Below, piece by piece: positions 11,003 to 15,428 of a DNA stretch of 36,069 bases. How positions within the stretch are numbered: position 1 is the first letter of the stretch; the number at the start of each line of letters is the position of its first letter. The notes under the pieces were generated by a model. The model had not been told where the DNA came from, did not search any database, and worked only from the letters and a program-made list of their open reading frames with translations. The DNA comes from Deltaproteobacteria bacterium (GTDB lineage Bacteria > Desulfobacterota > Dissulfuribacteria > Dissulfuribacterales > UBA3076). Made by a program: the position numbers and the translations under genes. The stretch lies in contig DQXT01000128.1 in NCBI GenBank assembly GCA_011042225.1, positions 1 through 36,069 of the forward strand, in the 5' to 3' direction.

Positions 11003-11362
11003 ATGAATAAAGAAAAAATACTCATAGTTGATGATGAAGAAAGTATTCATCTCCTTTACAAGGAAGAGTTGGAAGAAGAAGGCTATGAAGTCTACTCGGC
11101 GATGAGTGGAGAAGACGCCCTTAAAGTATTTGATGCTCAGGAACCGGATCTTGTCATCTTAGATATCAATATGCCCGGCATGGACGGCATAGAAGTACTC
11201 CGCCAAATGAAACAGAAAAAGCCCGGAGTGCCTGTTATCTTGAGTTCTGCTTATCCTGAGTATAAACAGGATTTGGCATCATGGGCCTCAGATGACTATA
11301 TAGTCAAATCCTTCAACTTAGATGATCTCAAATCCTCTGTCCGTAGAAATTTAGCCAAATGA
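11003..11362 (+). CDS. Single-domain response regulator (CheY-like)
   Basis: A 119-residue protein consisting only of a receiver domain. Acidic pocket Asp10-Asp11, phosphoacceptor Asp54 in LDINMPGMDG, Ser81/Ser82 at the switch position and Lys102 are present. The usual Lys-Pro pair is Lys-Ser here. With no output domain it must act by binding a partner or as a phosphate sink in a relay. ATG 11003 has GAAGGTG upstream. Its 3' end overlaps, in the opposite direction, the 3' end of the PilZ-PAS-kinase-like gene by 12 bases. That neighbour lacks the phosphoacceptor His, so a direct kinase-regulator pair is doubtful. Confidence 0.9.
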   Translation: MNKEKILIVDDEESIHLLYKEELEEEGYEVYSAMSGEDALKVFDAQEPDLVILDINMPGMDGIEVLRQMKQKKPGVPVILSSAYPEYKQDLASWASDDYIVKSFNLDDLKSSVRRNLAK

Positions 11363-12850
11363 AGAAGAGAAGGGAAAGTTTGGCGTATCACTTAAGGAAA
11401 CAGATTTTCTTAATGGTTCTTGTATCTTTGATGTTGTCACCTTAAATATCACTGTTTGAGAACCCGAATTGCCTGAAACGTATACATTAACTCCATATTT
11501 CTTTTTCAAGAGCGGCAAAATATTAAGGGCGGGATCTTTATCTAAAGGGGTATTCAGAGCCTTTCCGTTGTGGCTGATGCGGAGGACCAAGTCTTCATCC
11601 TCCTTAAAAGTTTGGATCGACATCCACATATTGTCAAGAGTCGCCATCTGCTTCATCAGCACTAGGCATAGAGCTAAAAATGCATTAGCCCACTCTGAAT
11701 AATTTCCATAAATTAGAGGGAGATCAGGGAATAAAGATACCTGCCTGTTTATCTTTCTGAAAAAGAAATGGAGGTCTAAAATTCTTAGCTCATCTTTTAT
11801 CAGGCTATTCAAGGAAAACGGCACCATTGCTCCTACTGTCTCATTCTTTCTCCTACGAGCAATGGCCCAACAAAATTCCGTTATTTGACCTGTTATAATC
11901 TGAATTGATTCGATATCAGAGACCCAATCCTTGATCTGTGTTTCATCTATGGCAGTTTCACATCTGGATATTTTTTTAGCTATAAGATCTAGACGCCCGA
12001 TTATTGCGGATAAAGGATTTGCAATATCCTCAAGGAGATCATCGAACAGTTGACCAAAAATCAAATGCCTGTACTGTTGCCAGAGGGTCTCCTCCCTAGC
12101 TTTTTCCCTATCCTGTAACCGATGTAGTGCAGTAACATCGCGATTGCGCAAAAACAGACCTATTGTATCCCCACAAGGGCCAATTAAGGGCAAAAGCCAG
12201 ATATTATAATATTTATTATGACAATCCGGATCATTTAGCCACGGCAAGTCGCAAGGGAAAGAGCTTATCCTAACGTCTTCTTTATCAACCAATGCTTTAT
12301 CGAACAGTTCTTTAAAAGAAGCCTCTCCTTTAGAACCCCTATATAGTAAGCAAACCTCTGCAAATTGTTTTCCTCGGAGTTTTTTAGGATCTCTAGGCAG
12401 GCAAAATGGCTGATTAATATTAGAAAAAACAATATTAAGCTTGGAATCAAAGATCAGGATTCCGTCATCCAGACTATCTAAAAGGTATTGAAAATAAATT
12501 AAATGACTGAGTTCAGTCTCAAGACCTTTAACTAGATCAGAAACAGAAAAAGTCCAATTAGTTACATCTTCAAAGGCTATTCCACTCCTGAATTTGCCTT
12601 TTTCTTTTTTAACCCATTTAATTTGCCCTTTCACAATGTAATCAGTACCAGAGGCCTTTTCACTAGGCCCGAGGGTCACAGTCTCATGATGATGCACAGG
12701 ACTGTCAGACTTAATCTGTATGCCATACGGACTCAAATCAGTTGAGACTGCACGGGTCGCAGTTCCATGGGTTCCTGTTTTTAAGCACAGAGAAACATTT
12801 AGCGGTATTCGTAAGGATCGGCGCCGCTCTTTATGGACTCCTTGTTGCAC
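11351..12850 (-). CDS. PilZ-PAS protein with degenerate histidine-kinase core
   Basis: A 499-residue protein. An N-terminal PilZ domain (residues 1-105) has both c-di-GMP contacts intact: Arg10-x3-Arg14 (RRSLR) and Asp38-x-Ser40-x2-Gly43 (DLSPYG). A PAS-like domain (about 120-245, YLLDSLDDGILIFD) follows. Next is a helical dimerisation region whose H-box reads LLEDIANPLSAI: Glu274 stands where the phospho-His belongs. The remaining ATPase-like domain has no clear N-, G1 or G2 box. It probably reads c-di-GMP and a PAS signal and works by protein contact rather than phosphorylation. The GTG start is well supported: AAGGAG lies 6 nt upstream. A sigma54-type promoter sits 66 bp before the start, and the gene for a sigma54 activator lies beyond it. 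Confidence 0.82.
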   Translation of the reverse strand: MQQGVHKERRRSLRIPLNVSLCLKTGTHGTATRAVSTDLSPYGIQIKSDSPVHHHETVTLGPSEKASGTDYIVKGQIKWVKKEKGKFRSGIAFEDVTNWTFSVSDLVKGLETELSHLIYFQYLLDSLDDGILIFDSKLNIVFSNINQPFCLPRDPKKLRGKQFAEVCLLYRGSKGEASFKELFDKALVDKEDVRISSFPCDLPWLNDPDCHNKYYNIWLLPLIGPCGDTIGLFLRNRDVTALHRLQDREKAREETLWQQYRHLIFGQLFDDLLEDIANPLSAIIGRLDLIAKKISRCETAIDETQIKDWVSDIESIQIITGQITEFCWAIARRRKNETVGAMVPFSLNSLIKDELRILDLHFFFRKINRQVSLFPDLPLIYGNYSEWANAFLALCLVLMKQMATLDNMWMSIQTFKEDEDLVLRISHNGKALNTPLDKDPALNILPLLKKKYGVNVYVSGNSGSQTVIFKVTTSKIQEPLRKSVSLSDTPNFPFSSSFG

Positions 12851-12915
12851 AGAGTCTCCTTATCCTTAAATAAAAAATGTTATGTTAGAGAAAAAACTTA
12901 AGTATTTGAACTAAA

Positions 12916-12931
12916 TGCAAATAAGGTACCA
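12916..12931 (-). promoter_or_regulatory. Sigma54 (-24/-12) promoter for the PilZ-PAS gene
   Basis: Read on the minus strand the site is TGGTAC-CTTAT-TTGCA, compared with consensus TGGCAC-N5-TTGCA: one mismatch, with the essential GG and GC elements exactly 10 bp apart. The predicted transcript start is near 12904, giving a leader of about 55 nt before GTG 12850. Position, orientation and the adjacent sigma54-activator gene all support it. The site was found by eye and has not been scored against a matrix. Confidence 0.65.
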
Positions 12932-12992
12932 AAATAAAAAAATTTACTAATTCAATACTGGGGATACAGTCTAATATCTAAACATCTTTACC

Positions 12993-13040
12993 AATAAAGA
13001 GAAAAGCTTTTCCATAAATGGAAAAGCTTTTCTCTTTATT
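12993..13040. repeat. Perfect 21-bp inverted repeat made of two GAAAAGCTTTTC palindromes (candidate activator-binding sites)
   Basis: Arms at 12993-13013 and 13020-13040 are perfect inverted copies around the 6-base spacer ATAAAT. Each arm itself contains the 12-bp palindrome GAAAAGCTTTTC (13001-13012 and 13021-13032), so the structure is also two direct operator-like sites 20 bp apart, about two helical turns. They lie roughly 100 and 120 bp upstream of the predicted sigma54 transcript start, where enhancer sites for sigma54 activators usually sit. The element directly follows the activator gene. It could instead, or also, act as a terminator, but no U-run follows the hairpin on the minus strand and the stem is AT-rich. 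Confidence 0.65.
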
Positions 13041-13061
13041 ATTTGCCGAATACAAAAATCA

Positions 13062-14144
13062 TTAGAATAGTTCCAGTTCTTTTGGCAACTTCAACTCCAA
13101 GCTACCGTCAGATGAATCCCTGTCCGGCACCTCTACCCCAAAATCTTTTATCTTATAAAGAAGTGCCTTGTAACTTATTTGGAGTAGCTGAGCAGCCTGT
13201 TTGCGATTACCCTTAGTCCGCCTTATGGCCTCTTCTATCACTACTTTCTCAATACGAGCCAGACTCTTTTTTCGGATTTCCTTTAAAGACGGAAACTGTA
13301 TTTGCATTTCATGTCTACAGTTATCTATCACAGATTTTATCAGAGATTCATCCGGCATCCATATTTCAGCAACGGATCGATCTTCCGGCATCTGTTGGCC
13401 CTTGGACTTAAGGATTTCTTCTTCAAGCAAATCAGCGTCTTCTAGGACTATCAATCTCCTCACATAGTTCTCAAGCTCCCTTACATTCCCAGGCCAATGA
13501 TATTCAGCAAAAACCTTTTCAAGCTTACTGGGTATGTCAATAACTCCACCCTTGGACATGCCCTTGTACTTTCGAATAAAGTGTTCAAGAAGGTATGAAA
13601 TATCTTCCTTTCTGACCCGAAGGGGGGGGACTACTATCTTTATAATATTGATTCGGTAATAGAAATCCTCTCGAAACCTACCTGTACTTACATCTTCATC
13701 AAGATTGTGATTAGTAACGGATATCACCCAGGTATTGACATGAACATTTCTTACCCCGCCTACACGAACAAATTCAGAATCCTGTAATACCTGTAAAAGT
13801 TTGGCCTGTAATGCGACAGGCATATCGCCGATCTCATCCAGTAATATGGTCCCCTTGTCAGCCAATTCAAATTTTCCTGGCTTTGGCTGTATTGCTCCGG
13901 TAAATGCACCACGCTCGTAACCGAATAGCTCGCTCTCAAGAAGCTCACTCGGTAGCGCAGCACAATTAACTTTGACCAGAGGATGCTCCCGACGATAAGA
14001 AAGATGGTGCAGGGTACGGGCAACCAGTTCTTTACCTACACCACTTTCTCCACAAATAAGGACATTTAAATCGGTGTCCACTACCTGGTTTATCAGATCC
14101 TTGATGCGCCTGATCGATGGACTATTGCCAATCATTAAGTTCAT
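13062..14144 (-). CDS. Sigma54-dependent transcriptional activator without receiver domain
   Basis: A 360-residue bacterial enhancer-binding protein. The AAA+ domain begins at residue 4: Walker A GESGVGKE (32-39), sigma54-contacting loop GAFTGA (79-84), Walker B ILLDEIGDM (100-108), and the WPGNVREL sensor-II region near 215. A Fis-type HTH follows close to the C-terminus (GNRKQAAQLLQISYKALLYKI, about 312-332). There is no N-terminal receiver, GAF or PAS domain, as in PspF, so control must come from a partner protein or from expression level. The start is ATG 14144. The target is probably the next gene downstream on the same strand, which has a matching sigma54 promoter and twin palindromes. 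It is divergent from the diguanylate cyclase gene. Confidence 0.92.
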   Translation of the reverse strand: MNLMIGNSPSIRRIKDLINQVVDTDLNVLICGESGVGKELVARTLHHLSYRREHPLVKVNCAALPSELLESELFGYERGAFTGAIQPKPGKFELADKGTILLDEIGDMPVALQAKLLQVLQDSEFVRVGGVRNVHVNTWVISVTNHNLDEDVSTGRFREDFYYRINIIKIVVPPLRVRKEDISYLLEHFIRKYKGMSKGGVIDIPSKLEKVFAEYHWPGNVRELENYVRRLIVLEDADLLEEEILKSKGQQMPEDRSVAEIWMPDESLIKSVIDNCRHEMQIQFPSLKEIRKKSLARIEKVVIEEAIRRTKGNRKQAAQLLQISYKALLYKIKDFGVEVPDRDSSDGSLELKLPKELELF

Positions 14145-14444: not shown

Positions 14445-15428
14445 TTGTCTGAATTTTTAGAATCATCTGACGACCAAATAAATTTGATCCCAAAAAAACT
14501 GTCACAAAAGCCACAACAACTCCTAATTGTTGACGACGATCCTGCTATAAGAAATTTGCTGACAGAATTTCTCTCCCGTTTGGGACACCAATGTCGTACA
14601 GCGGTTGACGGTGTGGAGGCCATGGCATTGTTAAAACAGTCCCCCAGCACGATCGTAATCACTGACTTCCAGATGCCCAGAATGGATGGAATGGAGCTTA
14701 TCCTTAAAATCAAAAAACTCTGGCCTGAAACCGACGTAATAGCAATAACAGGATATGTTCGAGACTTTAATTATACCGACGTTATTAAAGCCGGGGCATC
14801 TGACTTCATTCAAAAGCCCTTTCACCTCGATGAGCTAGAGGCCAAACTCAACAGAATAACTATAGAACGTGGATATAGGACCCTGCTGCAGAGACTTTCT
14901 ACAAGAGATGTCCTCACAGATCTATACAACAGGCGCTTTCTCGATCATAAACTTGAACAGGAGGCAGAGAGGGCCACACGTCAAAATTATTTTATTTTTC
15001 TAATCATATTAGACCTGGACAATTTCAAGGAGCTAAATGACACCTTGGGACATCAGGCCGGAGACAAAGTGCTCCAACGCTTAGCTCAGGTGTTGAGTAA
15101 TTCCATCAGGAGTAATGTTGATATTCCATTTCGCTATGGAGGAGATGAATTTGCTATAATGATTCCCCAAGCCGACACAGAGCAGGTAAATCAAATAGCA
15201 GAACGTATACGAAGCAATTACATGAATGAAGATATAGGCAAAACTTCACTTAGCATAGGTATTTCCCGCTTCAGAAGAACAAACAAGAGTTTGCGCGAAG
15301 ATATTAACGATTTTATACGTAAAGCCGATAGCTCAATGTATGCTGCAAAAAAAGGGGGGGGTAATAAAATAATATTTAACGAAGAAATTAAAAACGGAAC
15401 TCACTTGATCACAGAGCCTGCTAATTAA
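14445..15428 (+). CDS. Response regulator diguanylate cyclase (receiver-GGDEF)
   Basis: A 327-residue PleD/WspR-like protein. The receiver (residues 25-140) has Asp30-Asp31, phosphoacceptor Asp74 in ITDFQMPRMDG, and Lys124. The GGDEF domain (about 152-315) keeps GGDEF at 232-236 and the DLDNFKELND metal/GTP region. It should therefore make c-di-GMP when phosphorylated. The inhibitory I-site RxxD is not conserved: SNVD stands at that spot, so product feedback is doubtful. The start is TTG 14445 with GGGG upstream; no in-frame ATG occurs before the receiver. Its last 8 bases overlap the 3' end of the opposing mreB-like gene. A PilZ c-di-GMP receptor is encoded about 2 kb away. Confidence 0.9.
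   Translation: MSEFLESSDDQINLIPKKLSQKPQQLLIVDDDPAIRNLLTEFLSRLGHQCRTAVDGVEAMALLKQSPSTIVITDFQMPRMDGMELILKIKKLWPETDVIAITGYVRDFNYTDVIKAGASDFIQKPFHLDELEAKLNRITIERGYRTLLQRLSTRDVLTDLYNRRFLDHKLEQEAERATRQNYFIFLIILDLDNFKELNDTLGHQAGDKVLQRLAQVLSNSIRSNVDIPFRYGGDEFAIMIPQADTEQVNQIAERIRSNYMNEDIGKTSLSIGISRFRRTNKSLREDINDFIRKADSSMYAAKKGGGNKIIFNEEIKNGTHLITEPAN

Follow-up and report, generated by a model that had tools for sequence, protein, structure and literature searches.

What purpose is served by two identical palindromes lying just behind the gene of a sigma54 activator is the question raised by the window, i.e., the whole stretch of 36,069 nucleotides that was analyzed. Both are exact copies of GAAAAGCTTTTC, with no strand assigned, located at 13001-13012 (the predicted proximal activator site) and 13021-13032 (the predicted distal one). 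Reading along the minus strand, the end of the activator gene is followed by 29 bp, the distal palindrome, 8 bp, the proximal palindrome, a further 69 bp, and the sigma54 -24/-12 promoter TGGTACCTTATTTGC (12917-12931, minus strand), which was recognized by pattern match and is the sole TGGYAC-N5-TTGC match in the window, where 0.12 would be expected. Beyond this promoter come the transcription start predicted from it at about 12905, the ribosome-binding site AAGGAG (12861-12856, read directly, with AGGAG kept in the genus alignment), and the GTG start of the next gene at 12850. The palindrome centers are 20 bp apart and stand about 101 bp (proximal) and 121 bp (distal) upstream of the predicted start, with 88 bp between the proximal center and the -12 GC. 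A sigma54 enhancer is expected to consist of palindromic (dimer) sites some 80-200 bp upstream of a -24/-12 promoter, with at least two of them in helical phase; both palindromes lie within this range, and the spacing is 20 bp in the genus and 20-23 bp elsewhere, where two or three sites are present.

In the 2.05-Mb genome that contains the window, GAAAAGCTTTTC is found in three places only, i.e., the window pair and one further copy (L003), while the reversed control is found in none. The third copy, unpaired and lying in coding sequence, was rejected as a chance occurrence. The spaced pair GAAAN4TTTC-N6-11-GAAAN4TTTC occurs once in this genome, and a literature search for GAAAAGCTTTTC as an exact string returned unrelated papers only.

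The initial annotation of this DNA had described twin palindromes 20 bp apart, about 100 and 120 bp upstream of a start from a near-consensus -24/-12 promoter, next to the gene of a Fis-HTH sigma54 activator. Its coordinates and distances are correct, the promoter is the TGGTACCTTATTTGC described above, conserved in the genus, and the Pfam matches of the adjoining gene bear out its identity. What had been left unnamed was the gene served by the promoter, which faces away from the activator gene and into a separate gene, the next on the same strand (11351-12850, minus strand).

The activator gene (13062-14144, minus strand) encodes a protein of 360 aa, the predicted binder of the palindromes, in which a sigma54 AAA+ domain beginning at residue 4 (PF00158, 5.6e-66) is followed by a lid and a Fis-type HTH (PF02954, 1.2e-12), and Pfam detected no receiver or sensor domain N-terminal to the AAA+ domain. 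The GAFTGA loop is invariant in the ortholog alignment, and the genome thus encodes the AAA+/GAFTGA and HTH activator that an enhancer calls for. The protein scores far under the cut-offs of the NifA, NtrC, PspF, and PrsR models, and it falls outside both the PspF family (TIGR02974; 266.7 bits, cut-off 443.55) and the PrsR family (TIGR02915; 290 bits, cut-off 502.6, with the receiver absent). Orthologs are present in 25 other genomes at approximately 54-93% identity.

Some features of the activator’s neighborhood and relatives may be recorded here. A receiver-GGDEF (diguanylate cyclase) gene at 14445-15428 (plus strand) is divergent from the activator gene and is a possible source of c-di-GMP beside the PilZ target, and opposite-strand ORFs of like length are found at its position in several genus loci. 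In a Desulfobacterales MAG (DAOVOU010000016, locus L035), two sigma54 activator genes of the type found in the window are arranged in tandem, and the DNA between them contains GAAA-type sites spaced by 22 bp together with a sigma54-like TGGCATCAAATTTGC, the distance being greater than that seen in the order.

The target gene (11351-12850, minus strand) encodes a PilZ-PAS-histidine-kinase-like protein of 499 aa (Pfam PilZ and PAS_4), in which the PilZ domain is followed by the PAS domain and then by an AtoS-kinase-like stretch, residues 119-433 being AtoS-like. The PilZ domain contains the RxxxR (RRRSLR) and DxSxxG (DLSPYG) motifs, which usually bind c-di-GMP. As every aligned ortholog has Glu where the phospho-accepting His of the kinase would be (LLEDIxNPLSA vs HExxNPL), the family is probably a conserved pseudokinase. 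The ATPase motif of the family is also degenerate (HNGKAL).

The arrangement is conserved in the genus. The activator ortholog is present in six of the seven other genomes, at 84-93% identity, and in all seven ortholog-bearing genomes (including that of the window) both palindromes are exact, with the 20 bp spacing, and are followed by the promoter in the form TGGYAYCTTATTTGC, while the intervening and flanking DNA drifts. The remaining genome (G002) has neither the activator ortholog nor the palindrome pair. In the sister genus (G008), the sites read GAATTTTTTTTC-N8-GTAAAGCTTTTC, still 20 bp apart, and in more distant loci across the order, where the activator is approximately 54-63% identical, the GAAAAnnTTTTC sites number two or three, at spacings of 20-23 bp, and the PilZ-PAS target gene follows the sites in orthologous loci throughout the order. 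Taken together, 32 copies of the site yield the consensus G A A A A/T n n T T T T C, in which G1, A3, T10, and T11 never vary.

The position of the sites is tied to the promoter. In 20 orthologous loci, 88-91 bp (mean 89.1, SD 0.9) separate the center of the proximal site from the -12 GC, whereas the distance from the activator stop to the start of the distal site varies from 2 to 282 bp (SD 71). The apparent values of 111-113 bp in G025, G035, and G038 are due to a third site, the promoter-proximal site being in fact near 89-91 bp. A near-fixed distance of this kind is unusual among sigma54 enhancers, which are generally regarded as position-tolerant. In G034 (L131, contig C124), an IS-like element with a transposase separates the activator from its PilZ target by approximately 1.4 kb, and the sites GAAAAATTTTTC and GAAATTTTTTTC (20 bp apart) and the promoter TGGTGCACTATTTGC nevertheless remain with the target. 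The insertion begins within or beside the most distal site, and is thus a natural experiment on the enhancer.

The initial annotation had read the locus as enhancer geometry and as an operator-regulator pair formed with the adjacent activator, had proposed that related genomes be searched for the pair beside orthologous activators, and had named the loss of the pair or of the -24/-12 site at orthologous loci as fatal to its reading. The search recovered the pair in all six other ortholog-bearing genus genomes, so that pair and promoter are conserved at 7/7 genus loci, and a degenerate form is present across the order. The reading has thus survived, supported by this conservation and by the way in which the sites track the promoter, with binding as its predicted part.

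A wider set of promoters was sought by searching 46 genomes of the order for GAAAANNTTTTC with a GG-N8-TTGC match 58-84 bp downstream, the score and the spacing range having been fixed after the first loci had been seen; 39 matches were obtained in 21 of the genomes, against approximately six for the reversed pattern. Of the 31 matches from outside the genus, 26 show a gap of 69-74 bp (P ~5e-13 if uniform), the gap being mostly 70-72 bp, and a second site is present 19-24 bp upstream in most of the 31. The genes behind these matches encode DUF3135 proteins, proteins with PEP-CTERM-type tails (PVPEPATIMLFGSGL..., VPIPGAVWLLGSGL...), an asparagine-synthase-like protein, and others. The list comes largely from other families, the window’s own genome having just the one perfect pair. 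The initial annotation had also called for a scan of the whole genome, which yielded that one spaced pair, and the 39 order-wide matches, a set that it had not seen, support and extend its view by indicating that promoters of the putative enhancer class exist beyond the window locus.

Within this set, DUF3135-type genes recur as targets (L187, L189, L191, L194, L197, L198, L200, L203, L210, L212, and L216), two of them having been identified by Pfam and the rest by eye; the two proteins checked match PF11333 at 1.6e-12 and 1.1e-24. Hardly any literature on DUF3135 was found. At two other loci, L199 (G045:C8) and L206 (G039:C116), the gap is 62 rather than 70-72, and the gene that follows encodes a conserved Cys-containing protein of 70 aa with no Pfam match. 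Looser single-site matches within the genus were mostly located in coding DNA and were set aside for this reason, such matches being credible only if they are non-coding with a gap of 71, or paired, as in G004 C124, G006 C226, and G007 C108.

The PEP-CTERM genes deserve separate treatment, given that a predicted activator of these genes, PrsR, has already been described, its site being a 17-nt motif whose last bases are TTTACA and whose spacer measures 63 +/- 11 bp (Haft et al. 2006, PMC1569441). The genes were collected using TIGR02595, and their upstream regions were scored with a threshold of 24 (the 99.9th percentile of the shuffle being 22). In the activator-bearing genomes, 23 of the 46 PEP-CTERM loci reach this threshold with paired sites and a promoter in the fixed frame, which represents 22 distinct promoters, as two loci share one, compared with 2 of 11 loci in the ortholog-less genomes, a difference that is not significant by locus (p 0.09). 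The genes themselves are present in 12/12 of the ortholog genomes examined and in 4/15 of those without the ortholog (p 2e-4). The TTTACA-type promoters, predicted to belong to PrsR, precede another subset of the PEP-CTERM genes, and none of the PEP-CTERM promoters examined combines the TTTACA type with the GAAAAnnTTTTC type. In the window’s own genome, for example, there is a true PrsR (C12), and the adjoining PEP-CTERM gene has TTTACA at -69 before its promoter, while at least two PEP-CTERM-like genes (C131 and C12:32496) have no TTTACA and carry degenerate GAAAA-type sites, these being weak candidates. In the window, TTTACA is absent from the coding strand between the activator stop and the target start, that is, no PrsR-type site is found there. 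The GAAAAnnTTTTC enhancer class is probably, as judged from these promoters, a second control circuit of the PEP-CTERM genes.

Which activator reads the sites is a separate matter. The strict match of site and promoter is found in 19 of the 26 ortholog genomes and in 2 of the 20 without the ortholog (Fisher 2e-5), and with the genus left out in 12/19 and 2/19, respectively (p 0.002), although the genomes are related, and shared ancestry overstates their independence and inflates both tests. The sites could function as an enhancer and still be bound by another sigma54 activator, i.e., a receiver-containing paralog, rather than by the adjacent receiver-less protein. Many further sigma54 activators are encoded in every genome, and two genomes, G017 and G018, have no recognizable ortholog and yet contain the site-promoter unit before a DUF3135 gene (in G018 also before a PEP-CTERM gene), and therefore the motif may be read by a different activator, or these drafts may lack the ortholog. 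Against this, the distribution of the motif parallels that of the adjacent activator both within the genus and across the order, while NtrC-like paralogs occur in 46/46 genomes, unlike the motif. PrsR itself was set aside as the binder, given that 12 of the 21 genomes with the motif have no PrsR above the cut-off, and that its recognition helix reads SRPTLHDL, compared with SYKALLYKI in the adjacent activator. Binding by another activator is thus unlikely, and the adjacent activator is favored as the predicted binder on account of its adjacency and its joint presence with the sites in genus and order.

A less probable reading is that the inverted repeat acts mainly as an intrinsic terminator, or as a hairpin that protects the 3' end of the activator mRNA, with the palindromic nature of its arms being incidental. 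The pair had been suspected in the initial annotation of doubling as a hairpin, and the two palindromes, together with 9-10 flanking bp (12992-13041, minus strand), do fold as a long hairpin on either strand (approximately -30 kcal/mol; z -8 and -10), right behind the activator stop, with a T-rich tail in the genus loci. Compared with its closest relative, G005, the window shows compensatory changes at two base pairs of the flanking stem, and for this reason a use as a weak terminator of the activator mRNA may be considered. The five other genus loci have lost the flanking stem or keep it only in reduced form. In the sister genus (L129, G008), the hairpin has nearly vanished (-6.5 kcal/mol), but both sites persist in degenerate form. 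An intrinsic terminator consists of a G+C-rich stem followed by a U-tract along the direction of transcription; the stem formed here is strong and A+T-rich, and the terminator scan of the activator strand gave no site at this position. Each arm, moreover, is palindromic in its own right and constant in sequence, a feature not required of a terminator, and such sites also precede genes that have no activator gene upstream. Given that the position of the sites is tied to the promoter rather than to the activator stop, and that they remain with the target in G034 beyond the IS-like element, they are not primarily a terminator; this reading is very unlikely, and the hairpin, although real, is secondary. 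That the palindromes are a dispersed repeat or the end of a mobile element with no regulatory role, as their perfect tandem form might suggest, is a negligible prospect, given the single such pair in the 2.05-Mb genome, the retention of the exact sequence and orthologous position in seven genomes, and the fixed offset from a sigma54 promoter elsewhere.

The palindromes are, then, probably the tandem enhancer of the adjacent receiver-less activator, which would switch on the PilZ-PAS-pseudokinase gene and, elsewhere in the order, the DUF3135 and PEP-CTERM genes. The sites, their geometry, conservation, co-occurrence with the activator, and target genes are read directly from the sequence, and from these we infer binding, activation, looping, and the control of the activator by its level or by a partner. 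One Fis-type HTH dimer would sit on each GAAAAnnTTTTC palindrome, and, since the sites are about two helical turns apart on the same face of the DNA, two or three dimers could seed the AAA+ ring. This ring would then loop across approximately 90 bp to the sigma54-RNA polymerase at the -24/-12 site, where ATP hydrolysis would open the promoter and turn on the PilZ-PAS-pseudokinase gene. In the rest of the order, and in the genus at a small number of promoters, the same enhancer would drive the genes of DUF3135 and of the PEP-CTERM proteins, which are surface proteins sorted by exosortase, and its position before these genes suggests that the circuit probably controls the production of cell-surface or biofilm proteins. 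As the activator has no sensory domain, it would be controlled through its abundance or through a partner, possibly the pseudokinase that it is predicted to regulate, which is the natural candidate as the most constant of the targets. Taken one step further, and only tentatively, these elements may form a second, so far undescribed transcription system for the PEP-CTERM/exosortase surface proteins, based on a receiver-less activator and near-rigid tandem GAAAAnnTTTTC enhancers, tied to c-di-GMP through feedback from the PilZ-PAS pseudokinase, which would have taken PEP-CTERM promoters over from PrsR in some lineages.

Similar systems are known. The receiver-less activators of the PspF type resemble that of the window in having only an AAA+ domain and a C-terminal Fis-type HTH, and are expected to need control by a partner or by their level, as PspA provides for PspF. 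The window activator differs in its score (267 bits, compared with the PspF-model cut-off of 443.55) and in its targets, i.e., PilZ-PAS-pseudokinase, DUF3135, and PEP-CTERM genes. In Desulfovibrio vulgaris, the genes of sigma54 activators often lie beside a sigma54 promoter of their own, which in one case (DVU0569) is downstream of the activator gene, and regulons are generally small (Kazakov et al. 2015, PMC4641369). These activators, as described there, are like that of the window in having their own target nearby. The text of that report, on which the comparison is based, deals with groups of TGT-ACA half-sites and makes no mention of PilZ, and one of the 33 motifs shown as logos in its Fig. 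2 may match.

The closest parallel is the PrsK/PrsR system (motif 1 / motif 2, PMC1569441), in which, as here, the site of a sigma54 activator, sometimes repeated, precedes PEP-CTERM genes at a fairly regular distance from the -24/-12 promoter. The PrsR site, however, ends in TTTACA and has a spacer of 63 +/- 11 bp, whereas the sites described here are GAAAAnnTTTTC, in tandem at 20-23 bp, with a gap of mostly 70-72 bp; PrsR has a receiver and another recognition helix, whereas the window activator is receiver-less, and the two types of promoter are found on different PEP-CTERM genes, as in the window’s own genome. As many PEP-CTERM genes have no PrsR motif, further regulators and DNA motifs were still to be found (Haft et al. 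2006, PMC1569441), and the GAAAAnnTTTTC enhancer fits this gap in one bacterial order by providing a candidate activator, the exact site, and the targets, which makes the idea testable with a single protein and a single DNA fragment. The PilZ co-target, with its kinase-like part and the His to Glu replacement, offers a testable link between c-di-GMP and the display of surface proteins. The general kind of system, the sigma54 enhancer, is known, and what is new is the class of site, its strict geometry, the receiver-less activator with a PilZ-pseudokinase target, and what is likely a second PEP-CTERM circuit.
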